Shown one piece after another: positions 10,138 through 52,432 of a stretch of 64,000 nucleotides of DNA. The notes under the pieces were generated by a model. That model did no database searches and was not told the DNA's origin. It was given only the letters and a program-made list of their open reading frames with translations. How positions within the stretch are numbered: the stretch's first letter is position 1; every line of letters begins with the position of its first letter. Source of the stretch: Martelella radicis (GTDB taxonomy: Bacteria; Pseudomonadota; Alphaproteobacteria; Rhizobiales; Rhizobiaceae); assembly GCF_014196625.1 (NCBI RefSeq), contig NZ_JACIDZ010000003.1:1-64000 (forward strand), read 5' to 3'. The position numbers were made by a program, and so were the translations under genes.

Positions 10138-10185
10138 ACCGGCGGAAGGTTGCATTGCAATGCGGCCTTTCGCCGGTCGCATTTT
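10138..10185 (+). terminator. Intrinsic terminator after the DksA-like gene
   Basis: ACCGGCGGAAGG (10138-10149) pairs with CCTTTCGCCGGT (10166-10177) at 11 of 12 positions. The loop contains a further self-complementary GCATTGCAATGC. CGCATTTT follows. It lies 25 bases past the stop codon. Confidence 0.65.
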
Positions 10186-10273
10186 GGCGTTAGGCTTGAC
10201 GTGTGTCGGGTTCGTCCGGACCTGACGATCGCCCTTGTCTTTCCACGTCGGAATGCCGGAGCCTTGCCCCCGA

Positions 10274-10939: not shown

Positions 10940-11017
10940 GGCCGGCCGCCAGCGGAACACAAGCCGCCACTCGCGGCTTTGGCTATGAGACAAGAAAAAA
11001 GCATCAGGGAGAGAGAC

Positions 11018-11527
11018 ATGCATATGGTGAAGACTTTGGCGGCGGCGGCCCTTCTGGTCGCGTCACCCGCATTGGCGGATGAGGAACCGGTCTATTCGGA
11101 CGATCTGGTGGCCGAATGCGTGAACCTTGCCGAGACCGAGGCGGACATGCGGGCCTGCGCGGGCGTTTCCGCCGAGGCCTGCCAGAACGCCTCGGACTAT
11201 GGATCAACCACAATCGGCCTGCAGGAATGCGCGGCGCTTGAAACCAAGTTCTGGGATCAGTGGCTGAACCGGACCTATCGCGAATTGCTGGCCCGAGCCA
11301 AGGCGGCCGATGCGGAGGCCGAGAGCGATCCGCGCGCCAATGGCGAACTGGCCGAGAGCCTGCGCGACATGCAGCGGATCTGGATCAACTTCCGCGATGC
11401 GACCTGCGAATACGAGGCCAACCAGTATCAGGGCGGCACCATCGCCGGGCCGGTCTATGCCGGCTGCCTGCTGCGGATGACGGCCGATCAGGCGATCTAT
11501 CTGGACAATTCCTGGCCGACCTATTGA
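11018..11527 (+). CDS. LprI-like (DUF1311) secreted protein, copy 1
   Basis: Product of 169 residues with a signal peptide (MVKTLAAAALLVASPALA). The mature protein shows the lysozyme-inhibitor LprI/DUF1311 layout: ECAALETKFWDQWLNRTYREL followed by R-D-M-Q-R-I-W-I-N-F-R-D-A-T-C-E-Y and T-I-A-G-P-V-Y-A-G-C-L-L-R-M-T. Multiple Cys suggest periplasmic disulfides. A lysozyme-inhibitor role is known for some family members and is only an inference here. The ATG at 11018 after AGGGAGAGAG is preferred to the 13-codon-longer frame because the signal peptide then sits at the N-terminus. A paralogue follows directly. Confidence 0.8.
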   Translation: MHMVKTLAAAALLVASPALADEEPVYSDDLVAECVNLAETEADMRACAGVSAEACQNASDYGSTTIGLQECAALETKFWDQWLNRTYRELLARAKAADAEAESDPRANGELAESLRDMQRIWINFRDATCEYEANQYQGGTIAGPVYAGCLLRMTADQAIYLDNSWPTY

Positions 11528-11555
11528 GCAGGGCTGCAATCTTCGTCGCCCACGC

Positions 11556-11585
11556 GCGGGAGCGCCGGCAATGGCGCTTTCCCGC
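11556..11585 (+). terminator. Stem-loop between the two LprI-like genes
   Basis: GCGGGAGCGCC (11556-11566) pairs with GGCGC-TT-TCCCGC (11573-11585) across a 6-nt loop, with a two-base bulge. There is no clear T-run, so it may be a weak terminator or an mRNA-stabilising element between the tandem paralogues. Confidence 0.4.
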
Positions 11586-11669
11586 CCATGGGTCCGCAGG
11601 TTTTGCCGATCAACGTATAATTGTCGTATGATCCTGATGAAATCGGAAAAGACGGATCAGGAGGATTTC

Positions 11670-12161
11670 ATGCGCTTGCCGACCTTGCTTGCCTTTTCTG
11701 TGCTGCTTATTGCGCCCGGCGCCCATGCGGACGACATCGTCTATTCCGATGCGGCGACCGCACAATGCCTCGCCAAGGCCAGTCCGGTTGATGCGGGAGA
11801 AAAATGCATCGGTCTTTCGACGGGAAAATGCATCAACGCCAATGATTTCGGCCAGACCTCCGCCGGCATGGTGAGCTGCACGGCGAGCGAAACGGCCTTC
11901 TGGGACAAGCAGTTGAACGCGATCTACGAGAACGTCATGAAACAGGCGAAAAAGCTCGACGAAGGGGGTTCCGGTTCGCCGATCGCCGATGCGCTGCTCG
12001 CCATGGAACGCGACTGGATAAAATACCGCGATGCGCGATGCGCCTTCGTCGAGAGCCAGACCCAGGGCGGGACGATGGGCAAGACGCTTGCCGCCGGCTG
12101 CAAACAGCAGACCACCGCCGATCAGGCGCTCTTCCTCAAATATGCGATGATCGCCGAATAG
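11670..12161 (+). CDS. LprI-like (DUF1311) secreted protein, copy 2
   Basis: Product of 163 residues, clearly paralogous to the gene just upstream. It shares VYSD after the signal peptide, the C-x-x-N-A-x-D-x-G segment, ETAFWDKQLNAIYENV, the W-I-K-Y-R-D-A-R-C helix and TTADQALFL near the end. The signal peptide is MRLPTLLAFSVLLIAPGAHA. The start at 11670 is set by AGGAGG seven bases upstream. Predicted periplasmic. Tandem duplication followed by divergence is apparent; the family includes lysozyme inhibitors but no activity can be assigned. Confidence 0.8.
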   Translation: MRLPTLLAFSVLLIAPGAHADDIVYSDAATAQCLAKASPVDAGEKCIGLSTGKCINANDFGQTSAGMVSCTASETAFWDKQLNAIYENVMKQAKKLDEGGSGSPIADALLAMERDWIKYRDARCAFVESQTQGGTMGKTLAAGCKQQTTADQALFLKYAMIAE

Positions 12162-12235
12162 CGCTTCCGGGCCGCAGGGGTCTCTGATATCGGTGTTTCA
12201 ATCGGAAAACGCCTCGTCCCGGGACCCTCTGAACC

Positions 12236-12730
12236 ATGCTGATACGCGACGCGCGGGAGGCCGATCTGCCGGCCATCCTCGAAATCTACAATGACGCCGT
12301 CCTCAATTCCACGGCGATCTGGAACGAGATCCTCGTCGATCTTGAAAACCGGAAGGGCTGGCTTGCCGCCCGGCGCGCGCGCGGCTTTCCGGTGCTGGTC
12401 GCAGAACGGGACGGCGCGGTCATCGGCTATGCAAGTTATGGCGACTGGCGACCATTTGACGGCTATCGTCATACGGTCGAGCATTCGGTCTATGTGCACA
12501 GGGATCGCCGCGGCGGCGGGGCAGGGCGCAAGCTCATGGAAGCGCTGCTCGACCATGCGCGCGAAAATGGCGTACATGCCATGATCGCCGCGATCGAGGG
12601 CGAGAACATCACCTCGATCGCGCTGCATGAACGCCTCGGCTTTTTCCACGTCGGACGCTATCCGGAAGTCGGCACGAAATTCGGTCGCTGGCTCGATCTG
12701 GTGACGATGCAGTACAGTTTCGACACCTGA
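12236..12730 (+). CDS. GNAT acetyltransferase, phosphinothricin-acetyltransferase-like
   Basis: Product of 164 residues with the GNAT fold. It opens IRDAREADLPAILEIYNDAVLNSTAIWNE, the characteristic front end of the Pat/Bar and MddA group. The acetyl-CoA loop is RDRRGGGAGRKLMEALL, and the C-terminal part has ENITSIALHERLGFFHVG. Substrates in this group include phosphinothricin and methionine sulfone or sulfoximine; the precise one is unknown. Its stop codon directly abuts the stop codon of the convergent glpK with no spacer. Confidence 0.85.
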   Translation: MLIRDAREADLPAILEIYNDAVLNSTAIWNEILVDLENRKGWLAARRARGFPVLVAERDGAVIGYASYGDWRPFDGYRHTVEHSVYVHRDRRGGGAGRKLMEALLDHARENGVHAMIAAIEGENITSIALHERLGFFHVGRYPEVGTKFGRWLDLVTMQYSFDT

Positions 12731-14221
12731 TCAGATCGGTCCAAGGGTCCGCTGCACCGCGTTCTTCCAGCCCTTGTAGAGTTTTTCGCGGGTTTCCTCT
12801 TCCATGGCCGGCTTGAACTGGCGGTCGACGGCCCAGGCTGAAGCGAATTCCTCGAGGCCGGGATAGAGCCCGGCGCGGCTACCCGCAAGCCAGGCGGCGC
12901 CCAGCGCCGTGGTTTCGACGACCTGCGGCCGGTCGACCGGCACGCCCAGAATGTCGGCGAGGAACTGCATCGTCCAGTCATTGGCACTCATGCCGCCATC
13001 GACCCTGAGGATATTCGCCGAATCATGACTGCCCCAGTCGCCATGCATGGCCTCCAGCAGGTCACGGGTCTGGTAGCCGACGCTTTGCAGCGCGGCGCGG
13101 GCAAATTCGGCCGGGCCGGAATTGCGGGTGAGGCCGTAGATCGCGCCGCGGCATTCGGCATCCCAGTAGGGCGCGCCGAGGCCGGTAAAGGCTGGCACCA
13201 TGTAAAGCGTCTGTTCGCGGTCGGCGCTGTTTGCCAGCGCGTCGGTCTCGCGGGCGTGGCGGATCACCTTCAGCCCGTCGCGCAGCCATTGCACCACGGC
13301 GCCGGCAATGAAGATCGAGCCCTCAAGAGCATAGGTCGGCTTGCCGTCCATCTGGTAGGCGATGGTGGAGAGCATCCGGCTTTCGCTTTTTACGAACTTG
13401 TCGCCGGTGTTGAGAAGCGCGAAACAGCCCGTGCCATAGGTCGACTTGATCATGCCCGGCTCGAAACAGGCCTGGCCGACGGTTGCCGCCTGCTGGTCGC
13501 CGGCAACGCCGAAAATCGGGATCTCGCGGCCGAACAGATCGTGGCGGGTCATGCCGAAATCGGCGGCGCAATCCTTTACTTCCGGCAGGAGCGACATTGG
13601 GATATCGAGCAGCGCGCAGATATCCTCGTCCCATTTGCCCTCGCGGATGTTGTAGAGCATGGTGCGCGCCGCATTGGTGGCGTCGGTGACATGGGATTTG
13701 CCGTCGGTCAGCCGCCAGATGAGATAGGTGTCGACCGTGCCGAATGCGAGCCGGCCTTTTTCCGCCAGCGCCCGCGCGCCTTCCACATTGTCGAGCATCC
13801 AGGCGATCTTCGTCGCCGAGAAATAGGGGTCGAGGATGAGCCCGGTTGCGGAGGTGATGAAGCCCTCGTGGCCCTCGTCGCGCAATCTGGCGCAGGTGTC
13901 TGCCGTGCGTCGGTCCTGCCAGACGATGGCCTTGTGGATCGCCCGGCCGGTCTTGCGGTCCCAGATCAGCGTCGTCTCGCGCTGGTTGGCGATGCCGATG
14001 GCGGCGATGTCGGCGGCATGGATATCCGCGCGCTCGATCGCCTCGCGGCAGGTCGCGGCAACCGTCGACCAGATGTCGGCGGGCGCGTGTTCGACAAGGC
14101 CCGAGGCCGGATAATACTGGCGGAATTCCTCCTGCGCGGAGGCCACCAGTTTCATGTTGCCGTCGAAAATGATCGCGCGGCTCGACGTGGTGCCCTGGTC
14201 GATGGCCAGAATGTGGTTCAT
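12731..14221 (-). CDS. glpK: Glycerol kinase
   Basis: Phosphorylates glycerol with ATP to glycerol-3-phosphate in the cytoplasm. The 496-residue length is that of the family. FGGY kinase marks: [15 protein letters not shown] at the N-terminus, [16 protein letters not shown] with the substrate-binding Arg-Glu, [26 protein letters not shown] in the second domain, and [22 protein letters not shown] near the C-terminus. It lies 23 bases downstream of glpD on the same strand, with GAGGAGAAA as ribosome binding site, and forms a glpD-glpK operon. Confidence 0.96.
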
Positions 14222-37261: not shown

Positions 37262-38188
37262 ATGTCTGACGGGTTAGTGGCAGGCGCGGACGCGCCCCCG
37301 CCGAAAAAGCGCCGAAGGCGACGGCATTCACAGTGGACAGGCCTGATCTATGTTCTGCCGGCGCTGGCGCTCGTCACTGTGTTCTTCATCGTTCCGCTCT
37401 GCATGACGGTGTGGATGTCGCTGCACAAATGGCCGCTGATGGGCCTGCCGCGCTTCATCGGCCTCGACAATTACGAACGGCTGCTGTTCGACAAGAGTTT
37501 CTGGTCGTCGCTCTGGTTCACCGTCCAGTATACGATCGTCGTCACCATTGCGCTTCTAGGCTTCGCCATGGCGCTGGCGCTGATCGTGCAGGGGCAGGGA
37601 CGTGCGGTTTCCGCCTACCGGACGATCTATTTTCTCCCCGTGGTGACCGGCTTTGCCTCGGCCGCATTGCTGTGGGTCTGGCTTTCCAATGTCGATACCG
37701 GGCTTTTCTCGCCGCTGGCGCAGGACCTCGGCCTGACGGAGGGGCGGGTCAATATCCTCGCCAATTTCACGCCGGCCTTCTGGTCGGTGATCGTCATGGT
37801 CGTCTGGAAAATGGCCGGTTTCTTCATGGTGATCCTGATGAGCGGCCTGCAGTCGATCCCGGCGGATTACCAGGAGGCCGCGCGCATTGACGGCGCCAAA
37901 TGGCTGCAGCGCTTCCGCTACATCACCATGCCGCTGATCCGCAAACCCTTCGCGCTGGCGCTGATCCTCTGCGTTTCGGGCTCGATGCTGGCCTTCGACC
38001 AGTTCTACATCATCCTGAGCGGCGGGCCGCAGAACAAGACGGTCACCGCCGTCTACAAGATCTTCAACGAGAGCTTCGTCTCCTTCCGCCTGGGCTATGG
38101 CGCGGCCTTGTCCATGGTGCTGCTCGTCATCCTGCTCGTCCTCAGCGTGCTGCAGTTGACGCTGCTCAGCGATCGAAAGGACAAATGA
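37262..38188 (+). CDS. Sugar ABC transporter permease (MalF/UgpA type)
   Basis: Inner-membrane permease of 308 residues with six predicted helices after a basic cytoplasmic leader (KKRRRRRHSQ). The EAA loop is YQEAARIDGAKWLQRFRYITMPLIRKPF, the contact site for the ATPase. Its stop codon overlaps the next permease start (ATGA). Unlike the permease at 48.6-49.9 kb, there is no large periplasmic loop. Confidence 0.92.
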   Translation: MSDGLVAGADAPPPKKRRRRRHSQWTGLIYVLPALALVTVFFIVPLCMTVWMSLHKWPLMGLPRFIGLDNYERLLFDKSFWSSLWFTVQYTIVVTIALLGFAMALALIVQGQGRAVSAYRTIYFLPVVTGFASAALLWVWLSNVDTGLFSPLAQDLGLTEGRVNILANFTPAFWSVIVMVVWKMAGFFMVILMSGLQSIPADYQEAARIDGAKWLQRFRYITMPLIRKPFALALILCVSGSMLAFDQFYIILSGGPQNKTVTAVYKIFNESFVSFRLGYGAALSMVLLVILLVLSVLQLTLLSDRKDK

Positions 38189-39081
38189 TGTCGACCGCCG
38201 TTTCATCGTTTCAGCAAACCGCAGCCGCGCCTGCGACCCGTCGCGGTCGGTTCCGCTATCACCGTCTCCTGTTTCATGTGACGGCGACGCTGGTTGCCGC
38301 TCTTTTCCTGGCTCCGCTGGTCTGGGTGGTGCTGGCGAGCTTCCGCACGCCGGCGGAATCGACCCAACCTCCGATACCGCCGTGGCCGATGGAAGGCTTC
38401 AGCATTTCAAGCTATGAGCGGCTTGAGAATTTCGGCCAGTCGGTGCTGCATTATTCGGGCAATTCCCTGTTCGTTGCCGTCGGCACGTCCGCGCTCACCA
38501 TCGTCGTGGCGATCCTCGCCGGCTACGGTTTCTCGAGATACCGCTTTCCGCTGAAGGGCTTTGCCTTCGTGCTGATCCTGTCGACGATGATGGTTCCGTT
38601 CCAGTCGATCCTGACGCCGCTGTTTCTGCTTCTCGCCAAGATGGGGCTTCAGAACACGCTGATCGGCCTCGTCCTCATCTATTCGACGCTGCAGCTTCCC
38701 TTCTCCGTCTTCATGATGCGCAACGCCTTTGATGCCGTGCCGAAGGAGATCGAGGAGGCGGCCCGCATGGATGGTGTGAAGGGCGTGCGCATGCTCGTCC
38801 AGGTGATGGGCCCGCTGGTGCTCCCCGGCGTGGTGACTGTCGGCCTCTTTGCCTTCCTCAATGCCTGGAACGAGTTCCTCGCCGCCCTCGTGCTTCTGAC
38901 AGACCAGTCGAAATTCACGCTCCCCGTCTTGATGACCGCCGTGCGCTATGGCCGCTACGGCTCGGTCGACTGGGGCGCGGTGCAGGCGGGCGTCACGCTG
39001 ATGATGATCCCCTGCATGATCCTCTTTCTCATTCTCCAGCGCTCCTACATTCGCGGCCTGACGGCCGGCGCTGTGAAATAG
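38185..39081 (+). CDS. Sugar ABC transporter permease (MalG/UgpE type)
   Basis: Second permease, 298 residues, six helices. The EAA loop is IEEAARMDGVKGVRMLVQVMGPLVLPG, and the C-terminal region ends LQRSYIRGLTAGAVK, as in MalG-like subunits. The ATG at 38185 overlaps the previous stop; a longer frame into the previous gene is a shadow. It pairs with the preceding permease. Confidence 0.92.
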   Translation: MMSTAVSSFQQTAAAPATRRGRFRYHRLLFHVTATLVAALFLAPLVWVVLASFRTPAESTQPPIPPWPMEGFSISSYERLENFGQSVLHYSGNSLFVAVGTSALTIVVAILAGYGFSRYRFPLKGFAFVLILSTMMVPFQSILTPLFLLLAKMGLQNTLIGLVLIYSTLQLPFSVFMMRNAFDAVPKEIEEAARMDGVKGVRMLVQVMGPLVLPGVVTVGLFAFLNAWNEFLAALVLLTDQSKFTLPVLMTAVRYGRYGSVDWGAVQAGVTLMMIPCMILFLILQRSYIRGLTAGAVK

Positions 39082-39099
39082 CATTTCCGAAAGGACCAC

Positions 39100-41031
39100 A
39101 TGATGAACAAGCCCTTCAACGCCGGCGATGCCCTGCAGCCAAAGTCGAAATTCCGTCCGCTCTCCGTCAATCAGGTCGAGGTCGGCGGTTTTTTCGGCCC
39201 GCGCGTCGATGTCGTCGCGACGACGACGGCCAAGCTTCTGTTCGACCGATGCATCGAAGCGCGCATGCTGGAACAGGTCGACCCGGACCTGCCCAATCCC
39301 GGCATCGTCATCCCCTTCGACCACGGCAACACCGTCACCACGCAGATGTTCTGGGATTCCGATTTCGGCAAGAGCATCGAGACGGCGGCCTATGCGCTGA
39401 ACCGCAAGCGTGACGAAGAGCTGGAAGCCCGCGTCGACGCGGTGATCGATGCCTACGGCCGGCTGCAGGCCGAAGACGGTTATCTCAATTCCTGGTACCA
39501 GCGCATCCAGCCGGGTCAGCGCTGGACCAATCTGCGCGACCGACATGAGCTTTACAATGCCGGTCACCTGATCGAGGGCGCGGTCGCCTATTACCACGCC
39601 ACGGGCAAGCGCAAGTTCCTCGACATCATGTGCCGCTATGCCGACTGCATCGATGCCACCTTCGGTCCCGATGCCGACAGGAAACGCGGCTATCCGGGCC
39701 ACCCCGAACTTGAGCTGGCGCTGGTCAAGCTCGGCCGCGTTACCGGTGAGCAGCGCTATCTCGATCTGGCGAAATTCTTTGTCGACGAACGCGGCAAGGA
39801 TCCGAAATATTTCGATCAGGAAGCCATTGCGCGCGGCGAAAAGCCGGAAGACTTTCACTTCACCACGCTCGAATATTGCCAGGCCCACAAGCCGGTGCGC
39901 GAGCAGCGGGAAGTCGTCGGTCATGCGGTGAGGGCGGCCTATCTCTATGCCGGCATGGCTGACGTCGCCACCGAGTTTTCCGATGACAGCCTCGACCCGG
40001 CACTGGAAGCGCTGTGGTCGCACCTGATCGACCGCAACCTCTATGTCACCGGCGGCTTCGGGCCATCGAAGGACAATGAGGGACTGACATTCGACTATGA
40101 TCTGCCCAATGATACCGCCTATGCCGAGACCTGTGCGGCTGTCGCACTGGTGTTCTGGGCCAGCCGCATGCTGGGCCGCGAGCCCGATGCGCGCTTTGCC
40201 GATGTCATGGAGCGGGCGCTCTATAACGGCGCGCTTTCAGGGCTTTCGCAGGACGGCACCCATTTCTTCTACGACAATCCGCTGGAAAGCCATGGCGGCC
40301 ACCATCGCTGGCGCTGGCACCGCTGCCCCTGCTGCCCGCCGAACATCTCCCGCCTCGTCGCCTCGATCGGCACGTACTTCTACGGCGTTGCCGAGGATGA
40401 GCTGGCGCTGCATCTTTATTGCGAGAATGCAGCCGAAATCGAGATTGCCGGCACAAGGATCGATGTGAAACAGCAAACCGCCTATCCGAAGGATGGCAGG
40501 GTTACCCTTACGCTGACGCCGCTGACGCCCGTCGAATTCACCCTGTCGCTGCGCGTACCGGGCTGGGCCAGAGGCTTTTCGCTCGCGATCAACGGTGAAG
40601 CCTCCGATGCAACGCCGGAGAAGGGCTATCTTCGGATCCGCCGCCAATGGGAGGCTGGCGACACGATCGAACTTGACCTCGGGATGGAGCCGGAAATGCT
40701 CTATGCTCACCCGAAGGTCGCGCCCGACCAGGGCCGTGCTGCCCTCTTGCGCGGGCCGTTCGTCTACTGTGTGGAGGAAACCGACAATAAGGCGCCGCTC
40801 AATGCCTATGTGGTGAAAGACGGCGCTTCCGTGAGCCTTGCGACGGTCGATGGTCTTAGCGATACGGTTGCGCTCAGCATCGAAGCTCTCGTCGAAAGCC
40901 AGCCGACCGAGGCGCTTTACGCCACCACACCGCCGCACCGGACATCCGCCAGTTTGAAAGCCATACCCTATTATCTCTGGGACAATCGCGCGCCGGGCGA
41001 AATGCTGGTCTGGCTGCGCAGGGAGGCATGA
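39100..41031 (+). CDS. GH127 beta-L-arabinofuranosidase
   Basis: Glycoside hydrolase of 643 residues (DUF1680/HypBA1 family) removing beta-linked L-arabinofuranose. The (alpha/alpha)6 barrel has DGYLNSWYQ and [17 protein letters not shown]. The zinc-thiolate catalytic site is visible: Glu343 and Cys345 in YAETCAA and Cys411-Cys412 in [11 protein letters not shown], corresponding to the Glu, Cys, Cys, Cys ligand set of HypBA1 in which the first Cys of the CC pair is the nucleophile. No signal peptide, so it acts after import. It lies between permease and ATPase genes, overlapping the latter start. Confidence 0.92.
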
Positions 41032-42131
41032 CGATGGGCCAGGCAGAGTTGCTCACCCCGGATCGCAACCCGTCGGGCCTGTCGCTCAGGCGGGTCTCCA
41101 AGGCCTTCGGCGCGGTGCAGGTCATTCATGATGTCGACCTGGAGATCGAGGGCGGCGAATTCGTCGTCTTCGTCGGACCGTCGGGCTGCGGAAAATCCAC
41201 CCTTTTGAGGCTGATCGCGGGTCTCGAAGAGGTGACGAGCGGCGACGTGATGATTGCCGGCACGGATGTGACCGACGAGGACCCGTCCGATCGCGGCATC
41301 GCCATGGTGTTCCAGACCTATGCGCTCTATCCGCATATGAGCGTGGAGCAGAACATGGGCTTCGGCCTCAAGGTTGCCGGACGGCCGAAGGCGGAGGTCG
41401 AGGCCAAGGTGCGCCAGGCGGCCGATATCCTGAAGCTGACGGACTATCTCGACCGCCGTCCCGGCCAGCTTTCCGGCGGCCAGCGCCAGCGCGTTGCCAT
41501 CGGCCGGGCGATCGTCCGGGATCCGGAAATCTTCCTGTTCGACGAGCCGCTTTCCAACCTGGACGCCGAACTGAGGGTCGGCATGCGCATCGAGATCGCC
41601 CGGCTGCACCGCGAGCTTGGCAACACGATGATCTACGTCACCCATGACCAGACGGAAGCGATGACGCTTGCCGACAAGATCGTCGTCCTGCGCGGCGGCT
41701 ATATCGAGCAGGTGGGCTCTCCGGCAGCACTTTACGATGATCCCGACAACATGTTCGTCGGCGGCTTCATCGGTTCGCCCAAGATGAATTTTCTCTCGGG
41801 CGTGATACGGGGTGGCGAGGTCGAGATCGCGGGAGCCAGGCTGCCGTTGGCCGAACTTGAGACGAAGCCGAAGGATGGCACGCCCGTCACGGTCGGCATT
41901 CGCCCTGAGCACTGGCGCCCTGCCGGCGAAGGCGAGCCGGGCGTGCCGTTTACGGTCGATTTCTCCGAGTTCCTCGGCGGGTCGAGTTATCTCTACGGCA
42001 CGATCGGCGAAACGGTTGCTACCGTGGAAGTCGAACGCAGCGCCATTGCCAGGCCCGGCACGACGCTTCTTCTCACTGTCGACGCCGACAGGATTTACGT
42101 TTTCGGAGAGGATGAGCGGCGTATTCGCTGA
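41028..42131 (+). CDS. Sugar ABC transporter ATPase (MalK/UgpC type)
   Basis: ATPase of 367 residues. Walker A is [11 protein letters not shown], the signature [16 protein letters not shown] and Walker [18 protein letters not shown], followed by the [13 protein letters not shown] switch His. The last 110 residues form the TOBE-type regulatory domain ([12 protein letters not shown]). The ATG overlaps the GH127 stop (ATGA). It serves the two permeases upstream and closes the operon. Confidence 0.93.
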
Positions 42132-43377: not shown

Positions 43378-44181
43378 CTATGTTCGGCCCTGCAGGATCT
43401 CCTTCAGCCTTTCTGCAACCTGAGGGGCCGCGGCAAGGCAGGGACGCCGCATCGCGGTCAGATCGCCGGCGAAGGGGTCGATGGCGATGCCGCCAGCCTC
43501 GCGCACCAGTAGCAGGCCGGCCACGCAGTCCCAGGCGCTGAGTTCCGGCTCGTAAAAGCCGAGATAACTGCCCTGCGCCACATGGGCGAGGCTGAGGGCC
43601 GCTGATCCGTTGCGCATGAAGCTGCCGCCGTCTTCCAGGATGTTGGCGATGATCCGGCCGACCGCGCGGGCATGGACCGCGCCGCCCGGACCGATCGCGA
43701 TGACGCCACCGGAAAATGGCGTCGCGGCATCGATGGAGAGTTGCTTGTTATCGCACCAGGCGCCGTGCCCTTCCTCCGCCCAGTAGAGCGCGCCGGTTGC
43801 CGGATGCGCGATGAGGCTCAGCACCGTACGGTCGCCTTCCGCAATGGCAATCACCACCGACCAGCTCTCAAGGCCGTGCAGAAAGGGGCTGGTGCCGTCG
43901 ATCGGGTCGATGATCCAGCAAAATCCGCTCTTGCCGTCGGCCTTGCCGTGCTCCTCGCCCAGTAGCCCGTCCTCGGGAAAGCGTGCGGCGATCTCGGCGC
44001 GGATGAAGCCCTCCACCGAGCGATCGGCGACGGAGACGAGATCCTGGCCGGATGTCTTGGTTTCCACGATCAGGCTCTCACGGCGCCTGAAAAAATCGAG
44101 CGCCAGCGCCCCGGCTTCGCGGATGATGATCTTGGCGGCGGCAAGCCGCGCCGCGCGGGCGGGAGAAGAAGAGGTAGTCAT
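43378..44181 (-). CDS. Inositol monophosphatase family phosphatase
   Basis: Mg2+-dependent phosphatase of 267 residues. The metal-site motifs are GEEHG (about 75-79), IDPIDGTSPFLHG and ELSAWDCVAGLLLVREAGG near the C-terminus. The family covers inositol-1-phosphatase, 3'(2'),5'-bisphosphate nucleotidase and other sugar phosphatases; the substrate is not decidable from motifs. It is the last gene of the importer operon at 43.4-51.3 kb, next to a double glycerophosphodiesterase, which makes inositol phosphate or a related phospho-sugar a sensible guess. Confidence 0.87.
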   Translation of the reverse strand: MTTSSSPARAARLAAAKIIIREAGALALDFFRRRESLIVETKTSGQDLVSVADRSVEGFIRAEIAARFPEDGLLGEEHGKADGKSGFCWIIDPIDGTSPFLHGLESWSVVIAIAEGDRTVLSLIAHPATGALYWAEEGHGAWCDNKQLSIDAATPFSGGVIAIGPGGAVHARAVGRIIANILEDGGSFMRNGSAALSLAHVAQGSYLGFYEPELSAWDCVAGLLLVREAGGIAIDPFAGDLTAMRRPCLAAAPQVAERLKEILQGRT

Positions 44182-44203
44182 GGGAAATGCGATGTCTTTT
44201 CGG

Positions 44204-45283
44204 TTATGAGGGAGGCTGATCAGCCTTCAAGCCCTGGGGTGGAGGGGCTGGCGGGCCGGGCGGCACAAGGGTGGTCGAGCCGCGTTCGACCAGGTGCACG
44301 TCGACGACGACCGGCGGAGCGACGGTGTCCGGTTCGCTGATGCGCGCAAGCAGGCCGTTGACGGCGGCATCGGCCGTGCGCACCGGGTCCTGGCGCACTG
44401 TCGTCAGGTCGTAAGCCAGCCAGCCGGCCTCGGGAATGTCGTCGCAGGCGACGAGCTTCAGATCGCCCGGGATCGAAAGCGGGCTCAAATGGCGGATGGT
44501 ATCGATGAAGCCGAGCGCCAGATAGTCGTTGGCGCAATAGATGCCATCGACGTCGGCGGGGTCGGAAAGGAAAGCGTCGGCGGCTGCGCGCCCGCCCTGA
44601 TAGTTCGGCAGGTCGCCGAAATATTCGCCGGCGATCTCGATGCCGAGCCGCTCGCATGCGCGCCAGAAGGCGGAGCGGCGAAGGCTGATCGAATGCGAGC
44701 TGCGCCGCTGGCTCGCCAGCGCCACGCGCCGGCATCCGGCATCGAAAAGCGCGCGCGCCGCCAGTTCGCCGGCGGCTTCCGTGTCCATCGAAACGTTCAG
44801 CACCGTATCGGAAACGGGCCGCTTGTTGATCAGAACCAGTGGCACGCCGTGATCGGCGCATTGACGGGCGATCTCGGCGGGGGAGGCGTCATCGGTAACG
44901 ATGGCGCCGGCGACATTGTAGTGCAGCATCATGTCGATATGGCGGGCGACCTTGCCGCCGCGCTCTGTCGGCAGCAGAAGCGGACGATAGCCGGAAGCGA
45001 CAAGGCTCGTGCCGAGTTCGGCCAGCAATTGCGCCCGAAACGGGTTGTCGATGTCGGAGACGACAAGTCCGACGAGGTTGGAGCGTTGGTGCGACAGGCT
45101 GCGCGCCAGAAAGTTGACGCGATAGCCAAGCGTGGCCGCGGCCTCAAGCACCTTTTCGCGGGTCTGCGGCGCGACGCTTGCGCCGGGCGTGAAAGTGCGC
45201 GAGACGGCGGAGCGGTGGACGCCGGCAAGCCGAGCGACATCCTCGGCGGTCGGCGCCCGTCCGGGGCGGGTTTCATCGGCCAT
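44204..45283 (-). CDS. LacI family transcriptional regulator of the glycerophosphodiester-type operon
   Basis: Product of 359 residues. The HTH TAEDVARLAGVHRSAVSRTFTPG and hinge RVNFLARSLSHQRSNLVGLVVSDI are typical, and the effector domain has GIYCANDYLALGFIDTIRHL. The ATG at 45283 follows GGCGGA and overlaps the end of the GDPD gene by 11 bases. The regulator sits inside the operon it probably controls; a perfect 18-bp palindrome in the operon leader is its likely operator. Confidence 0.9.
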   Translation of the reverse strand: MADETRPGRAPTAEDVARLAGVHRSAVSRTFTPGASVAPQTREKVLEAAATLGYRVNFLARSLSHQRSNLVGLVVSDIDNPFRAQLLAELGTSLVASGYRPLLLPTERGGKVARHIDMMLHYNVAGAIVTDDASPAEIARQCADHGVPLVLINKRPVSDTVLNVSMDTEAAGELAARALFDAGCRRVALASQRRSSHSISLRRSAFWRACERLGIEIAGEYFGDLPNYQGGRAAADAFLSDPADVDGIYCANDYLALGFIDTIRHLSPLSIPGDLKLVACDDIPEAGWLAYDLTTVRQDPVRTADAAVNGLLARISEPDTVAPPVVVDVHLVERGSTTLVPPGPPAPPPQGLKADQPPS

Positions 45284-46742
45284 CGGCAATCCGCCGTCGA
45301 AGCGCCGCAGCCAGAAGATCGGCCCGATCGAGATTGATCATCGGCGGGGCGATCTCGGCGATCCGGTCGAAGATTGCGGGATCGTCGCCGAAATACTGCA
45401 TCATCGGGGTGATCCCTTTCGCAAGGCATTGGGGGGCAAGGCGCGCATAATCCGGATAATGGATCTCGGCAAGCTGCGGCGCCAGATGGCCTTGCATCTC
45501 CTCCACATCTTGATAGCGTCCGGCGCTGGCCTTGATATTGGCATCGGGCGCGGCCTGGCGCATCGCTTCCTGCAGAGACGGGTTCTCCGACCAGAAGAAG
45601 CAATCGCCAAGAAAATTCCGCGAGCGCACGAAATCGACCAGAACCTTCGCGTCGACGGTCTTGTTCTCGATATAGAGCCGCGCCCCGTATGATCTGGCAA
45701 GCGTGATCATCTCATCAAGCGTCGGTATGATTTCCGCCGCATAAAAGGGCGAAAACCACGCGCCGGCGCTCAGCGTCTTCAGTTCGGCCAGTGTCCGTGC
45801 TCTGACCGCGCCGGTCCCCGTGGTGGTGCGTTCCAGCGTTTCGTCATGAATGACCACGATCTCGCCGTCGGCGCTCATATGCACGTCGATCTCGACGAAA
45901 TGCGCGCCCTGGCCGAAGCTGAGGCGCGCGGCGGCAAGCGTGTTTTCGGGCGCGAAATGATTGGCGCCGCGATGGCAGACAATCTGCGTCGCAACACCGT
46001 CTAAGCGGTCGAAACCGCGCATCAGTTCGGGCTGGTTGGTGCAGATGCCGAGCACCGGCAATGCCATCAACGCTTCGAGCACGGGCTTGCGCTCCTCATG
46101 CCAGAGCACGACGCCGAGGTTTTCGTCCTTCGCCCGCTCAAGAAGCGCCGCGTCGACTTGGCGCTCAGGGCTTTCACCGCCGCCTTTCTCCCAGCAGAGA
46201 TGAATGATGTCGGCCCGGGTCTCGGCTGCGCGCGCGAACGGATCCGCGCCAAGCGGCACCAGGGCGGCCAGCGTAAATGGACAGCCGGCATCGGCAAGCG
46301 CGCGGATTTCATCGACGTTGAAGCTGCCGAGCGCGACGCGGGTAAAGCCTCGCGCAAGCAGATGGCGCCAGACAATGCGACCCGCGCCGGCAGCCTTGAT
46401 CTCGATGTAGAGCGCCTGATCGAGCCTTGCGGCAAGGTCAAGCGTCTCGTCGAGACTCGGGATTTCCGGTGCAAGGTCGCGCAGGGTTGCAAAGTCGAGG
46501 TCGGCGATGGCGCGGTCGATGCCGGCGATGCGCATCAGGCCGGCGTCATGCGTGATCACGGGCACACAGTCGGCCGTCAGATGTACGTCGATTTCCCACA
46601 TCTGCGCGCCCAGTTCGGCAGCGACCCGGAAGGCGGAAAGCGTGTTTTCCGGGGCATGCGCCGATGCGCCGCGATGGGCGATGCATACCGGCTCCCCGGC
46701 CGCAAAGGGCCATGGAATGGTATTTTCCGCGCGTCTTGTCAT
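45273..46742 (-). CDS. Tandem-domain glycerophosphodiester phosphodiesterase
   Basis: Product of 489 residues containing two complete GDPD domains. Domain 1 (about 18-240): HRGA with His23-Arg24, PENT with Glu32, EIDVH (Glu50, Asp52, His54) and TH at His65. Domain 2 (about 252-480): HRGA with His257-Arg258, PENT with Glu266, EIDVH (Glu284, Asp286, His288) and IHDETLERTT with His299. Both keep the catalytic His pair and metal ligands. No signal peptide, so it acts in the cytoplasm and yields glycerol-3-phosphate plus an alcohol. Most family members have one domain. It overlaps the upstream ATPase gene (ATGA). Confidence 0.92.
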   Translation of the reverse strand: MTRRAENTIPWPFAAGEPVCIAHRGASAHAPENTLSAFRVAAELGAQMWEIDVHLTADCVPVITHDAGLMRIAGIDRAIADLDFATLRDLAPEIPSLDETLDLAARLDQALYIEIKAAGAGRIVWRHLLARGFTRVALGSFNVDEIRALADAGCPFTLAALVPLGADPFARAAETRADIIHLCWEKGGGESPERQVDAALLERAKDENLGVVLWHEERKPVLEALMALPVLGICTNQPELMRGFDRLDGVATQIVCHRGANHFAPENTLAAARLSFGQGAHFVEIDVHMSADGEIVVIHDETLERTTTGTGAVRARTLAELKTLSAGAWFSPFYAAEIIPTLDEMITLARSYGARLYIENKTVDAKVLVDFVRSRNFLGDCFFWSENPSLQEAMRQAAPDANIKASAGRYQDVEEMQGHLAPQLAEIHYPDYARLAPQCLAKGITPMMQYFGDDPAIFDRIAEIAPPMINLDRADLLAAALRRRIADGR

Positions 46743-47794
46743 ATCGCCGCTCCAGAGGAGTCGAAGGCGAGCAGCTTCTCGGTCTCAAGCCCCCAGGCAA
46801 CACTATCGCCGATCTGCACATCGCCGCGCACCGGCTGGATCGAGCGCAGCACTGTCTTGTCGCCCAGCTTGATGTCGAACAGCATCTCGCGGCCCTGCGG
46901 TTCGATGAAGCTGACGGTGCCGGTCACGGTGTCGGGGTGGTTGCCGCCGAAATGCTCCGGCCTGATGCCGAGAGCAATCCGCTCGCCTTGCGTGCGGCCC
47001 GCCAGCCTTTTCGGCAGCGGCAGGCGGATCGCGTCGTCTGTCGTCAGAGCGCCATTGTCAATGCGACCCTCGGCGAAGACGATTGGCGGATTGCCGAGAA
47101 AGCCGGCGACGAAACGGTTGGCTGGCGCCTCGTAGAGCGCGGTCGGGCGGTCAAGCTGCAGGATCCTGCCCTTGTCCATGATCGCGACCCGGTCGCACAT
47201 CGACATCGCCTCGACCTGGTCATGGGTGACCAGAATGGCGGTAATTCCGGTCTCGAGCTGGATGCGGCGGATTTCCGAGCGCATTTCAAGGCGCAGCTTG
47301 GCGTCAAGATTGGCGAGCGGCTCATCGAGCAGCAGCACGTTCGGACGGCGGACGATGGCGCGGGCAAGGGCGACGCGTTGCTGCTGGCCGCCGGAGAGCT
47401 GGCCCGGTTTGCGCTCCAGCAGGTTGTCGATATGGGCAAGGCCGGCGATCGCCTCGACCTCGCGCTTGATATCGGCCTTGTTCATGCGCCGCACGCTCAG
47501 GGGAAAGGCGATATTGTCGAATACCGACATATGCGGATAGAGCGCGTAGTTCTGGAAGACGACGCCGACATTGCGCTTCTGGCTCGGAAGCGTCGAGACA
47601 TCCTTGTCGCCGAACAGGATCTTGCCCTTGTTGATGCGGTGAATGCCGCAGACGGCGAAAAGCGTGGTCGACTTGCCGCAACCGGAGGGGCCGAGCAGGG
47701 CCATCATCTCGCCGGAGCGGACGGTCAGGTTCAGGTTCTCGATCACCGGCGTGCCGTCGAAGGATTTGGTGAAATTGGAAAGTGAGACTTGCAT
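46739..47794 (-). CDS. ABC transporter ATPase (UgpC/MalK type)
   Basis: ATPase of 351 residues. Walker A is [12 protein letters not shown], the signature LSGGQQQRVALARAIV and Walker B VLLLDEPLANLDAKLRL. The regulatory domain includes IALGIRPEHFGGNHPDTVTG. The start at 47794 (TGATG with the permease stop) gives the UgpC-like MQVSLSNFTKSFDG. Encoded between permeases and the glycerophosphodiesterase. Confidence 0.92.
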   Translation of the reverse strand: MQVSLSNFTKSFDGTPVIENLNLTVRSGEMMALLGPSGCGKSTTLFAVCGIHRINKGKILFGDKDVSTLPSQKRNVGVVFQNYALYPHMSVFDNIAFPLSVRRMNKADIKREVEAIAGLAHIDNLLERKPGQLSGGQQQRVALARAIVRRPNVLLLDEPLANLDAKLRLEMRSEIRRIQLETGITAILVTHDQVEAMSMCDRVAIMDKGRILQLDRPTALYEAPANRFVAGFLGNPPIVFAEGRIDNGALTTDDAIRLPLPKRLAGRTQGERIALGIRPEHFGGNHPDTVTGTVSFIEPQGREMLFDIKLGDKTVLRSIQPVRGDVQIGDSVAWGLETEKLLAFDSSGAAI

Positions 47795-48618
47795 CAGCCT
47801 TTGGTGCCTCCACTGAAGATGTTCATCAGCGGCTTCTGGAAGAGCACGAAGAGAACGATGACCGGCAGGGTGTAGAAAAGCCCGACCGACTTGAAGAGAT
47901 TGAAATTGTAGGTGATCGAATCCGGGTCGGAGACCGCCTCTAGATAGACCGAGAGCACTTCGATCTGGGCTGCCGGTGCGAGAATGCGCGGCAGCAGATA
48001 TTCGCTCCAGCCGTCGATGAAGACGAAGATGGAAAGCGCCATCAGCCCCGGCTTGACCTGCGGCAGGATCAGCCGCCACCAGACCGTGAACCGGCTGGCG
48101 CCGTCCTGCACGCCGGCCATCTCGATCTCCCAGGGCACGGAATCGTAAAACCCCTTCATGATCCAGATGCCGAGCGGCAGCATCAGGCTGGCCTTCACCA
48201 GAATGACGCCGATGAGCGTGTTGTAGAGGCCGGCATATTGTAGCACCAGGAACACGCCGATGAGCAGTGTCACGGTCGGAAAGGCGTGCATCACCATCAG
48301 CGAGGACAGGAAGAAGCGGCGGAACGGCAGGTTGAGCCGCGAAACCGCATAGCCGGCCGTCGTCGAGACGCCGAGCACGATCGCGACCATGCTGACGGTG
48401 AACAGGAAGGTATTGAGCGTCGGCTCCCAGACATTGCCGGTGACATCCGGGTTCCACAGAAACCGCCAGTGCTGCAGAGTGAACTCATTGGGCAGGAACG
48501 AACCCGGCGCCGAATTGGAAAAGGTATCGACCACGAGAAAAAGATACATGATCGCCAGCGGCGCGCTGAACAGCGCGAGGATGAAGATGACGGGCCAGAG
48601 GGAATGGTTCTTGGTCAT
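47794..48618 (-). CDS. ABC transporter permease (MalG/UgpE type)
   Basis: Membrane permease of 274 residues with six helices. The EAA loop is EIEMAGVQDGASRFTVWWRLILPQVKPGL. The ATG at 48618 directly precedes the first helix (NHSLWPVIFILALFSAPLAIMYLF). It follows the partner permease gene by one base. Confidence 0.91.
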   Translation of the reverse strand: MTKNHSLWPVIFILALFSAPLAIMYLFLVVDTFSNSAPGSFLPNEFTLQHWRFLWNPDVTGNVWEPTLNTFLFTVSMVAIVLGVSTTAGYAVSRLNLPFRRFFLSSLMVMHAFPTVTLLIGVFLVLQYAGLYNTLIGVILVKASLMLPLGIWIMKGFYDSVPWEIEMAGVQDGASRFTVWWRLILPQVKPGLMALSIFVFIDGWSEYLLPRILAPAAQIEVLSVYLEAVSDPDSITYNFNLFKSVGLFYTLPVIVLFVLFQKPLMNIFSGGTKG

Positions 48619-48619
48619 T

Positions 48620-49936
48620 CTAGAACTCGATCTTCGGTTTGCTGACCAGTTCGTTGAACCTGAACAGGCGCAGATAGAGGATGGAGAGGACAAGACCGAC
48701 AATGACGAGAATGAGCGCCATGGCCGCGCCCAGGCCGTACTGCAGGTTGCCGGTATAGTTGTTGAGCGCGGTGTGGAAGGCCTCCAGCGACCAGACGGTG
48801 GTCGTGCTACCCGGTCCGCCATTCGTGGTCAGCCAGATCAGTTCATAGGAAGAAAGCAGCGACAGCGTCTGGTAGGAGGTGACGAACAGGATCGGCCAGC
48901 GCATCTGCGGCAGGATGATCCTTGTCACCTGTTGCCAGCGGTTTGCGCCGTCGACCTCGCTCGACCAGAGCTGCTGTATGGGGATAGCCCTCAGCGCGCC
49001 GGAAAACAGGATCATGCCGAAGGATGCGCCGACAAAACCGTTGACGAGGATCACCGTCGCCCAGGCGGTCGGGACAGAGCCTTTCATGTAGTTGAAGGCG
49101 GGAAGGCCTAGGTCCTTCGCGGCGACATAGAGGAAACCGTTCTCCCAGGTGAACCACTTCCACATGATGGCATAGAGCACGACCGGCGTGATGCGCGGCA
49201 AAAGCCAGAGCACATTGAAGACGCCACCCGTACGGCTTGGAAGATAGAACACCGCGATGGCGAGAAACAGGCCGACGAAGACGTTGAAGGCCAGCGTGGC
49301 GCAGACGTAGAACACGGTATTGGCGACAAGCTTCAACGTGTCGGCGCGGGTGAGAAGGTCGATGAAATTGTCGGTCGTCCAGGTCCAGCCGGTGTAGGAC
49401 GCGGTGGCGATCATGCCAAGATCGGCCTGGGTTGCGTTCGGCAGGAAGGATTGCAGGGCGGCTTCGAACTGGCCGCGATCGGGATAGCGCGTGTTGATGA
49501 CCGAGCCTTCGAAGGGCTCGGTCGCAAGCTTCAAGTCGCGGATGCGCCGCGGTCGCGAGGGCAGGGATTTCAAGTCGTCCTCGAAAGCGGAGGAGGCCGA
49601 ATAGATATTACCGGAAAGGCGGTCCTCGATTTCCGCGAGAAAGCCGGGCTCGATATCGGTCGTCTTCGCGGCGGCAAGCGTCTCGGCGTTGACCGCATAG
49701 CTCTTCTCGCCGAGGGCTTCGCGCAGGCGTGGGTCGAGGTCGGAGGCTTCAAGCTTGCGCAGCACGGTTTCGGTGACGACATAGGCCCCGCCCGAAATAC
49801 CTGTCGAGGTGCTCATATTGGTAAAGGCGAAGATGCCGGTCAGCGTTGCCGGCAGCAGGAAGAAGGCTGCCAGCAGCAACGCTGCCGGGGTCATCAGCAA
49901 AAGGCCCAAACCATTGGCTCTGTTGGTCATGTTCAT
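48620..49936 (-). CDS. ABC transporter permease (MalF type) with a large periplasmic loop
   Basis: Membrane permease of 438 residues, about 130 more than the usual UgpA/MalF-type subunit of this class. The excess is a hydrophilic region between the first helix (about 10-37) and the next (about 205-230), containing TDIEPGFLAEIEDRLSGNIYSA and SFLPNATQADLGMIA. E. coli MalF also has a large periplasmic P2 domain that contacts the binding protein; this one is probably analogous, not necessarily homologous. The EAA loop is SEVDGANRWQQVTRIILPQMRWP. Confidence 0.9.
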   Translation of the reverse strand: MNMTNRANGLGLLLMTPAALLLAAFFLLPATLTGIFAFTNMSTSTGISGGAYVVTETVLRKLEASDLDPRLREALGEKSYAVNAETLAAAKTTDIEPGFLAEIEDRLSGNIYSASSAFEDDLKSLPSRPRRIRDLKLATEPFEGSVINTRYPDRGQFEAALQSFLPNATQADLGMIATASYTGWTWTTDNFIDLLTRADTLKLVANTVFYVCATLAFNVFVGLFLAIAVFYLPSRTGGVFNVLWLLPRITPVVLYAIMWKWFTWENGFLYVAAKDLGLPAFNYMKGSVPTAWATVILVNGFVGASFGMILFSGALRAIPIQQLWSSEVDGANRWQQVTRIILPQMRWPILFVTSYQTLSLLSSYELIWLTTNGGPGSTTTVWSLEAFHTALNNYTGNLQYGLGAAMALILVIVGLVLSILYLRLFRFNELVSKPKIEF

Positions 49937-49991
49937 GGATCCGTCACGGGAGAAGTTCCCGGAGCCGGCGGGCGGCTCCGGGGCGTGTCAA

Positions 49992-51347
49992 TCAGCGTAT
50001 GATGATCGCGTCGCCGAGCTGGCCGGTGACCTCGCTTTCGACATTGTTGACCGCATCCTCGACCGAGGTCGTGCCGGTCCAGGAGGCTTCCAGCCCTGAA
50101 TACATGGCCTTCCAGACGACGCCGAAATCGATGTCGTTCGGAACCGCCGTGGCATGGGGCAGGAGTTCGGTCGTGGCGATGCTGCTCCACCGGTCATTGG
50201 CAAAGACCGGGACTTCCGCTTCGGCCGAGCCGATGGCGACCTTGCCGGACTTGACGGCATGGAGCGCGGCAATGCGCGGTTCGGTGGCGATCGTGATCAG
50301 TTCGGAAGAAATGACGGCATCGTCGTCGGTGCCGGTGGTGGACATGAGATAGACCAGCGGATGGCTGATCGTGTTGGCGCGGCCGCGCTCATTGCCGGCG
50401 GGGATCAGGCTGTACTGGATCTGGCCGAAGAAGTCCTCGAGGCCCCACTTTGCTTCCCATTCGGCCTTGTGCCAGGTGCCGCCGTGCCAGATGCCGGCCT
50501 GATCGCTGGAAACGGCCTGGTGCCAGTCGTCCCATGTCGAACCCAGATGGGTCGAGGAAACGACGCCCATGTCCGCGGCGTCGACGAAGAACTGGTACAT
50601 GTCGGTGAGCGCCTGGCGGTCGAGCACGATCTTGCCGGTTTCCGGATCGACCATTTCACCGCCGAAGCTGACGTAGAACTGCCAGTAGTCGGTGCCATTG
50701 TTGACGCGCGGCATGAAACCGCGGCGCTCGGCGACGACGCCCTTGTCCTGCATCGCCTTGGCATCGTCCAGCATGTCGTAGAGCGTGTATTCGCCGTCCT
50801 GAACGCGCTGCGGCAGGGCGTCGATGTCCTCTTGTGAATAGCCGATTTCGGCAAGATGGGCGCGGGAGAAGAAGAACGGGCGGGCTTCCGCATCCTGCGG
50901 CAGGCCCCAGACAACGCCGTCATAGCTGGCGATGTCGATCAGGTTCGGATAGATCTGGCTGAGCGGCCAGGCGTCGAAATCGACATAGTCTTCGACCGGG
51001 CGCAGCAGGCCCGAACGCGACCAGGGGCCGATGTCCTCATGGCCGGAGACGATGATGTTCGGCGCATTGCCGGCCTCGGCGGCGAGCGTAACGGCCTGCT
51101 TGAAGTCGTCCCAGCCGGTCCATTCCTGGTGTTCAATCGTGATGTTCACATCCTGGCCCGTTACCGCGTATTCGCGCTCCAGAATGTCCGCAGCCATCTG
51201 GATTGCCTCCCAGCGGTAGCTGCCGGTTTCGCCGGTGCCGCCGGACCAGACGGTGATGGTATAGTCTTCGGCCAGGGCGCCGGAAGCGAAGCCCAGTGCC
51301 ACGACGGAGCCCATAAGGGCGGTTTTGGTTGTCTTGAGTATGCTCAC
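49992..51347 (-). CDS. ABC transporter substrate-binding protein (family 1)
   Basis: Periplasmic binding protein of 451 residues. The signal peptide is SILKTTKTALMGSVVALGFASGALA and the mature protein opens EDYTITVWSGGTGETGSYRWEAIQMAADILEREY. Trp-rich segments (WSGGTG, TWDDWHQAV, IWHGGTWHKAEWEAKWG) are typical of sugar-type ligand sites. The GTG at 51347 has AAGGGG six bases upstream and yields a compact signal peptide; ATG at 51362 is an alternative. Operon context points to a glycerophosphodiester or a similar phospho-polyol ligand, not proven. Confidence 0.88.
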   Translation of the reverse strand: MSILKTTKTALMGSVVALGFASGALAEDYTITVWSGGTGETGSYRWEAIQMAADILEREYAVTGQDVNITIEHQEWTGWDDFKQAVTLAAEAGNAPNIIVSGHEDIGPWSRSGLLRPVEDYVDFDAWPLSQIYPNLIDIASYDGVVWGLPQDAEARPFFFSRAHLAEIGYSQEDIDALPQRVQDGEYTLYDMLDDAKAMQDKGVVAERRGFMPRVNNGTDYWQFYVSFGGEMVDPETGKIVLDRQALTDMYQFFVDAADMGVVSSTHLGSTWDDWHQAVSSDQAGIWHGGTWHKAEWEAKWGLEDFFGQIQYSLIPAGNERGRANTISHPLVYLMSTTGTDDDAVISSELITIATEPRIAALHAVKSGKVAIGSAEAEVPVFANDRWSSIATTELLPHATAVPNDIDFGVVWKAMYSGLEASWTGTTSVEDAVNNVESEVTGQLGDAIIIR

Positions 51348-51380: not shown

Positions 51381-51398
51381 ATTGCACGCGCGTGCAAT
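51381..51398. promoter_or_regulatory. 18-bp perfect palindrome, LacI operator
   Basis: ATTGCACGCGCGTGCAAT is fully self-complementary. It lies 34 bases before the chosen start of the binding-protein gene. Even spacing with a central CG and TGCA-type arms is the classic LacI-family operator form, and the operon encodes a LacI protein. Confidence 0.75.
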
Positions 51399-51634: not shown

Positions 51635-51658
51635 AGAAATCGCAATTCAGTGGCGCTA

Positions 51659-52432
51659 ATGAACATCAGTGATCGTCAAACGAAAATTCTGGCCCTGGTC
51701 GAGGCGCATGGCGCGATGACCATCGAGACACTGGCGGAGGAGTTTGGCGTTTCGCCGCAGACGATCCGACGCGACGTGAATATGCTCTGCAGCGCTGACC
51801 AGTTGCGCCGCAGGCATGGCGGCGTGGAGCGGATGAGCGCTGGCGTCAATCTCTCCTATGACAGCCGGCGGCTATCGCATCCCGAGGCCAAGCGACGGAT
51901 CGGTCAGCTTGTCGCAGCGATGATCCCGAGCCGCGCCTCGCTGATGTTTTCGATCGGCACCACGCCGGAGATGGTTGCGGCCGCGATGGTCGATCATGAC
52001 GACCTGACCGTTGTGACCAACAATCTGAACGTTGCCATGGCGCTCAGCCCCAACAACTCAAACCGCATCTTCATTCCGGGCGGCATGATCCGCCTGCCGG
52101 ACCGTGACCTGATCGGCCAGGAAGTGGAGGCTATGTTCAACGGCTACCGCGCCGATTTCGGCATTTATGGCGTGGCCGGCGTCGAGCCCGACGGCGCGCT
52201 CGTCGATTTCGACCAGCAGGAGGCTGCTGCCCGCGAAGCAATCCGCATGAGCTGCCGTACCTCGATCCTGGTTGCCGACCGGTCGAAATTCTCAAGGCCC
52301 GCTCCGGCCAAGCGCGGCCGGTTGGGCGATGCCGACATCCTCGTGCTCGACGGGCCGCCGACGCTCGAAATGGCCGCCCTGATCGAGTCCGAGGGCGTTT
52401 CGCTGCGCTATCCTGAGGAAGAACTAGCCTGA
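51659..52432 (+). CDS. DeoR/GlpR family transcriptional regulator
   Basis: Product of 257 residues. N-terminal winged HTH: DRQTKILALVEAHGAMTIETLAEEFGVSPQTIRRDVNML, with the DeoR signature RRRHGGVER. The effector domain has LMFSIGTTPEMVA, VVTNNLNVA and FGIYGVAGVEPDGAL, the phospho-sugar site of DeoR proteins (usually GxxTx). The ATG at 51659 is used; a GTG three codons earlier is possible, and no clear ribosome binding site separates them. It is divergent from the importer operon with the GDPD gene, so it is a fair candidate for GlpR of this organism. Confidence 0.88.
   Translation: MNISDRQTKILALVEAHGAMTIETLAEEFGVSPQTIRRDVNMLCSADQLRRRHGGVERMSAGVNLSYDSRRLSHPEAKRRIGQLVAAMIPSRASLMFSIGTTPEMVAAAMVDHDDLTVVTNNLNVAMALSPNNSNRIFIPGGMIRLPDRDLIGQEVEAMFNGYRADFGIYGVAGVEPDGALVDFDQQEAAAREAIRMSCRTSILVADRSKFSRPAPAKRGRLGDADILVLDGPPTLEMAALIESEGVSLRYPEEELA

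Follow-up and report, generated by a model that had tools for sequence, protein, structure and literature searches.

The window, a 64,000-nucleotide stretch from Martelella radicis (positions 1 to 64,000 of contig NZ_JACIDZ010000003.1), carries on its minus strand, from 51347 to 43378, seven genes in the order solute-binding protein (SBP), MalF-type permease, MalG-type permease, UgpC-type ATPase, tandem GDPD, LacI regulator and inositol-monophosphatase-family phosphatase (IMPase). These genes most likely form a conserved operon for the import and use of a phosphodiester. As its ligand we place a sugar or polyol phosphodiester before a glycerophosphodiester by a modest margin, and we assign a probability of roughly 0.5 to the reading in which such a sugar or polyol diester is imported, cleaved by the GDPD in the cytosol and dephosphorylated by the IMPase under the control of LacI; glycerophosphoinositol would suit both ligand classes. 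The features are as follows.

49992..51347, minus strand: SBP (SBP_bac_1), 451 aa, GTG start at 51347, signal peptide recognized by eye
48620..49936, minus strand: MalF-type permease, 438 aa, by Pfam/NCBIfam
47794..48618, minus strand: MalG-type permease, 274 aa, by Pfam/NCBIfam
46739..47794, minus strand: UgpC/MalK-type ATPase, 351 aa, PRK11650 at 360 bits and MalK at 317 bits, both under cut-off
46742-45273, minus strand: tandem GDPD gene, two GDPD stretches in Pfam
46008..46742, minus strand: GDPD domain 1, residues 1-245, the conserved core enzyme, motifs WEID, HD, YIEIK and WHEE
45273..46007, minus strand: GDPD domain 2, residues 246-489, HD..LERTT type, matching 1ZCC (38% identical)
44204..45283, minus strand: LacI-family regulator, ATG start at 45283, with TTG at 45289 as an alternative start
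43378..44181, minus strand: IMPase (Inositol_P), 267 aa, motifs GEE, DPIDGT and WD intact
51382..51397, no strand assigned: probable LacI operator TTGCACGCGCGTGCAA, its centre 42 bases upstream of the SBP start, putatively bound by LacI

Searches with Pfam and NCBIfam confirmed all seven genes on one strand at the positions given in the original prediction, which had been made from the letters alone, with matches to SBP_bac_1, BPD_transp_1 (twice), a UgpC/MalK-type ATPase, two GDPD stretches, LacI and Inositol_P. Among the NCBIfam matches listed for the seven proteins (25 of 188 for the ATPase) none lay above its own cut-off, the best model for the ATPase being UgpC (PRK11650) at 360 bits against a cut-off of 432. 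The overlapping or nearly abutting starts and stops noticed earlier are borne out: MalF and MalG are separated by 1 base, MalG and UgpC overlap by 1 and UgpC and GDPD by 4, and GDPD and LacI overlap by 11 bases from ATG 45283 or by 17 from TTG 45289, with gaps of 55 bases between SBP and MalF and 22 between LacI and IMPase. The Pfam permease match in the MalF-type protein covers residues 219-424 only, leaving a long segment N-terminal to it; the length of this protein is 433-487 aa in most of the 78 related loci described below, taken as open frames with unchecked starts. The IMPase was tested for the PF00459 motifs GEE, DPIDGT and WD, which we take to form the metal site, and has all of them. 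By eye, a signal peptide was apparent on neither the GDPD nor the IMPase, indicating that both enzymes probably act in the cytosol.

To follow the gene order, which the original prediction had proposed to search for in other genomes, we scanned a genome collection with an alignment of 21 SBPs and obtained 352 relatives, of which the best 80 were retained, giving 78 loci (numbered here with the prefix L). We judged 68 of the 78, those in which UgpC was present and followed by at least 3600 bases of sequence. Gene assignments relied on BLAST scores obtained with the window proteins, a procedure that may miss a diverged LacI or IMPase, and the downstream frames of 16 loci were inspected by their first 70 residues. 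A GDPD adjoins the transporter in 66 of the 68 judged loci (33 tandem on the same strand, 31 with domain 1 alone and 2 tandem but divergent), LacI lies on the same strand in 62 and an IMPase follows in 55; GDPD, LacI and IMPase all share one strand in 53. No GDPD was found near the SBP-MalF-MalG-UgpC relatives L095 and L100, and these 2 of 68 were the only loci of the kind, homologous but lacking the enzymes, that the original prediction had named as evidence against itself. Since the order is retained across the judged loci, the gene combination is not due to chance, and the proposal that this is an import-plus-catabolism operon whose enzymes probably act on the imported phosphodiester is supported by the GDPD beside the transporter. 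The nearest relative among the best 78 loci is that of Martelella lutilitoris (SBP 98%), and the operon is spread over many genera: annotations show this gene order on named plasmids of Rhizobium, Marinovum and Antarctobacter, and in Neorhizobium with the GDPD part unannotated, and related operons occur in bins from metagenomes, labelled Oceanospirillaceae among other groups. The GDPD query matched 18 of 297 genomes of the order at E 1e-60.

The position of the GDPD also bears on whether the ligand is an ordinary sugar, the GDPD and IMPase doing other work such as recycling the cell's own phosphodiesters. The AlphaFold model of the SBP (pLDDT 91.1) has a MalE-like fold and about half of the 50 best solved chains listed for it are sugar binders, as such a ligand would predict. 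However, 25 of these 50 are forms of one dinucleotide-binding protein, so that the fold also serves phosphodiesters, and with all 50 at 13-19% identity the structural matches say little on the ligand. Given the GDPD beside nearly every judged transporter and the lack of a sugar kinase or glycosidase among the genes of the operon, we regard a plain sugar as very improbable, the least likely of the ligands considered.

For a sugar or polyol phosphodiester, we infer the reactions, their order and the class of ligand as follows. The operon would constitute a self-contained system scavenging carbon and phosphate from a small phosphodiester that contains a sugar or polyol. The SBP and the MalFGK-type ABC transporter would carry the intact diester into the cytosol, where GDPD domain 1, the core enzyme, aided here by domain 2, would split it into an alcohol and a sugar or polyol phosphate. 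The IMPase would then free inorganic phosphate and the sugar or polyol, and LacI would repress from the palindromic operator before the SBP gene until the ligand or a product is present.

In the acc operon of Agrobacterium (AccABCDE, AccF, AccG, AccR), AccF is described as the phosphodiesterase and AccG as the putative phosphatase of imported agrocinopine A (PMC4526662). Comparing operons that came from one, non-random, hit list, we found an IMPase directly after the GDPD in six of seven agrocinopine- or opine-type ABC operons (L034, L144, L145, L147, L148 and L156) and in none of the four operons annotated as Ugp (L053, L146, L152 and L155). A tree that set 28 IMPases of the operons against SuhB and five paralogues from the same genome placed the former in one group together with four AccGs and the L144 phosphatase (support 96/93); an earlier tree with one AccG likewise placed it among the operon IMPases (93/89). 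The acc operon resembles that of the window further in the ABC import of an intact diester, a cytosolic GDPD-family phosphodiesterase with an IMPase-family phosphatase behind it, and a dedicated repressor. It differs in its importer (AccA with AccBCDE) and its repressor, by annotation oligopeptide-type and DeoR-type respectively, whereas the window has an SBP_bac_1 protein with a MalFGK-type importer, LacI between the two enzymes, a tandem GDPD and a distribution over many genera. Plasmid operons of A. larrymoorei and A. vitis also have a GDPD directly followed by an IMPase behind an SBP-type ABC importer; they include a MalK-type ABC protein, a Na/Pi cotransporter and an epimerase, and differ in gene order, in a ROK regulator and in a single GDPD that groups with UgpQ. 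In one of them, L156 of the A. vitis F2/5 plasmid, the GDPD-IMPase pair is followed by genes for a Na/Pi cotransporter, an aldose epimerase, a sucrose phosphorylase and an alpha-galactosidase. The L156 and L144 operons lie close to traR and look like another agrocinopine-type opine operon.

Several observations weigh against a sugar or polyol diester. The IMPase tree is a weak test, given the long branch that bears AccG and the small number, six, of other IMPases in the comparison. The acc-like operon L033 (pAtK84b, 7467-13527), with an embedded gdpD, has no IMPase nearby by BLAST or annotation, and three of the four Ugp operons (L146, L152 and L155) end in a HAD-IIB hydrolase, a possible phosphatase; the IMPase contrast is therefore small and not clean. 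Within the relatives of the window operon, 12 of the 38 tandem-type operons yielded no IMPase, as compared with 0 of 31 single-domain ones (sign test median p 1, three pairs). In the GDPD tree neither domain is linked to AccF over Ugp-type enzymes. The AccF clade stands apart from both, yet a clade of domain 2 plus AccF (p-AU 0.231) and one of domain 1 plus AccF and L144/L156 (0.103) are not rejected. The opine GDPDs of A. vitis and A. larrymoorei group with E. coli UgpQ, so that the GDPD fold gives no argument for sugar diesters. Inositol phosphate from glycerophosphoinositol would suit the IMPase as well, and in L031 a patatin-like phospholipase gene adjoins the operon, a hint of lipid-derived diesters; a search of the 103 other sequences yielded no patatin-like gene. 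Recurring neighbour genes, viewed at three example positions per cluster, gave no clue to the ligand.

A lipid-derived glycerophosphodiester is a possible, if tentative, alternative. The GDPD would here yield glycerol 3-phosphate and a head group, and the IMPase would act on a phosphorylated head group, above all on the inositol phosphate of glycerophosphoinositol. Besides the patatin gene and the grouping of the A. vitis enzymes, this agrees with the family assignments of the tandem enzyme and of the phosphatase, with 1ZCC, named a glycerophosphodiesterase, as the closest PDB entry to domain 2, and with three KduI/IolB-family matches in the genome, by which inositol use may be possible. The organization is also that of UgpBAEC-UgpQ of E. 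coli, in which SBP, two permeases, a UgpC-type ATPase and a GDPD form one operon. The Ugp operons differ, however, in that the four annotated ones contain neither an IMPase nor LacI, and by inference an IMPase would be idle for most glycerophosphodiesters. The UgpE model matches the MalG-type protein at 42.6 of 297 bits, far under its cut-off; the UgpB and UgpA models list no window protein at E 0.001, the SBP included, and UgpC reaches 360 of 432 bits. Elsewhere in the genome, on C9, a UgpB-like SBP is encoded (362 of 411 bits). The RT(S/T) motif of E. coli UgpQ, present in domain 2 as well, is missing from domain 1. Of the earlier suggestion that the ligand is a glycerophosphodiester, the phosphodiester is supported, while the glycero- part is less well supported, given the distribution of the IMPase and the missing UgpB match. 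An operon on C11 (L051) was considered as the Ugp system of the genome and rejected: the UgpB model fits best on C9, where no GDPD match was found, and the C11 SBP comes second at 102 bits. L051, another ABC operon with a GDPD and without an IMPase, was for this reason left out of the Ugp count; further GDPD loci without an IMPase are L153 (ugpBAE on the other strand), L154 and L157.

The tandem GDPD was modelled as a whole by AlphaFold (pLDDT 94.4, pTM 0.92), its best solved match being 1ZCC, which by sequence aligns to residues 252-482, in domain 2. Both domains pass as GDPD family members (PF03009), with a TIM barrel and the HR, ExD, HD and ExK residues, and both retain H-R...E...E-x-D...H-D...E-x-K, in agreement with the earlier observation that each keeps its catalytic His and metal-ligand motifs. 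We compared 96 domain-1 and 53 domain-2 sequences (at least two genomes occur twice, L035/L055 and L036/L065) at positions presumed from the GDPD literature to be catalytic or metal-binding. All nine positions checked in domain 2 are retained in 53 of 53 sequences. In domain 1 the H of HRG, the E of ExD, HD and the K of ExK are present in 96 of 96, the R of HRG and the D of ExD in 95 and the E of the PENT motif in 83; the E of ExK is found in 74, the remaining 22 having D. In a tree of 137 rows, from which 20 of the 96 domain-1 rows were left out, each domain formed one clade (98/98 and 100/98) across lineages, indicating that the two-domain form is old and ruling out a recent internal duplication. 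The domains may stem from an ancient duplication (p-AU 0.219 for both as one clade).

Domain 2 is not universal. It is absent from 31 of the 69 operons placed in a tree (69 rows) built from the four transport proteins, the other 38 being tandem, and a search with domain 2 in 151 genomes of the family gave 4 matches. On the transport tree the tandem or single state changes three times, all forced by well supported branches. As domain 2 is a single clade and tandem forms occur in both halves of the tree, loss of domain 2, probably on at least three occasions, is the simplest interpretation. Some single-domain operons carry SBPs 70-74% identical to that of the window, among them L059-L064, in which transporters near those of the window are combined with a Rhizobium-like single-domain GDPD, LacI and IMPase. 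From such pairings it seems that GDPD, LacI and IMPase were exchanged together as one unit. L066 and L070 likewise pair window-like transporter genes with a Rhizobium-type GDPD-LacI-IMPase part. In several loci (L056, L059-L064, L026:8965-10704 and L047:7610-9349), from Rhizobium wenxiniae, Pseudorhizobium, Neorhizobium and other Rhizobiales relatives, domain 1 and LacI share a single open frame of 579-643 aa, an apparent enzyme-repressor fusion.

It had been suggested that the two domains may act on two linked bonds or differ in specificity. In the first case the ligand would be a bis-diester or a cyclic dimer, with one domain per phosphodiester bond. With domain 2 missing from 31 of 69 operons, some with closely similar SBPs, two linked bonds are not required. 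Both domains appear catalytically intact, two acc operons carry two accF genes, and a second GDPD-fold gene often lies near single-domain operons. This gene, of a type with HEG in place of HRG (Pfam GDPD, 28 bits against a cut-off of 23.6), lies near the operon in 25 of 104 sequences searched, all with single-domain operons (e.g. L030:11550-12407); by coordinates, 23 of the 25 copies are convergent with the operon and those in L070 and L129 are on its strand, the match in L129 being a fragment at the sequence end. Of the single-domain operons in the transport tree 19 of 31 have such a gene, versus 0 of 38 tandem ones. This association is a lead and not a result, since only three independent pairs underlie it and it cannot reach significance. 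Furthermore, 12 of the 31 single-domain loci have no second GDPD-fold gene in the available stretch, the HEG-type protein may be inactive, and the repeated loss of domain 2 also speaks against a ligand with two bonds, which we consider unlikely. The adjacent accF genes precede accG in two plasmids (L034:3110-4800 and L147:7974-9664).

Regulation was examined through the region upstream of the SBP gene, where a perfect palindrome containing TTGCACGCGCGTGCAA occurs in the window. Counting CG-centred palindromes of at least 7 of 8 pairs in 79 upstream regions (window plus 78 loci), we found one before the SBP gene in 45 of 79, whereas 20 single-base shuffles gave 3.85 on average. Most share a TTGCAC or ATGTAC half-site and a few (e.g. 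L082 and L095) differ; the loci labelled Rhizobium from L096 on have no palindrome at this threshold. The internal LacI noted earlier is supported as a local regulator: the operon is probably regulated by its own LacI, which would bind the palindrome. A wider LacI regulon is not supported, as a genome search allowing up to two mismatches returned the window operator as the sole site; a backward control pattern also gave one match, so that mismatched operator matches would not stand out from noise.

In soil and sea, phosphorus is available in organic phosphodiesters among other sources, and for few of their importers is the ligand known. An importer, a cleaving enzyme, a phosphatase and a local regulator in one conserved operon give a direct handle on a nutrient, which would be identified by the compound bound by the SBP and able to release LacI. 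Our search of the literature (open-licence PMC papers only) found no description of this operon. If the ligand is a sugar phosphodiester, agrocinopine-like nutrients would occur well outside Agrobacterium tumours; the broader idea, that a widespread alphaproteobacterial operon extends agrocinopine-type nutrition beyond crown galls, perhaps to a natural sugar phosphodiester with two bonds, is speculative and on balance doubtful. A precedent for a sugar phosphodiester that is taken up and hydrolysed as a nutrient is the use of Xanthosan by Xanthomonas (XanT/XanP), which employs a TonB-dependent transporter and a 2H-phosphoesterase, unlike the ABC importer and GDPD here (PMC12807533).

Two neighbours of the operon were also viewed. 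The DeoR/GlpR-type gene at 51650-52432, divergent from the operon, was considered as a member of the system and rejected, for it has no match of at least 150 bits in the 78 loci, not even in the near-identical L054, although some loci have little upstream DNA. On the other side, positions 37262-42131 hold a second sugar-type ABC cluster with its own UgpC-type ATPase and a 643-aa protein that by eye resembles what we take to be a DUF1680/GH127 beta-L-arabinofuranosidase.

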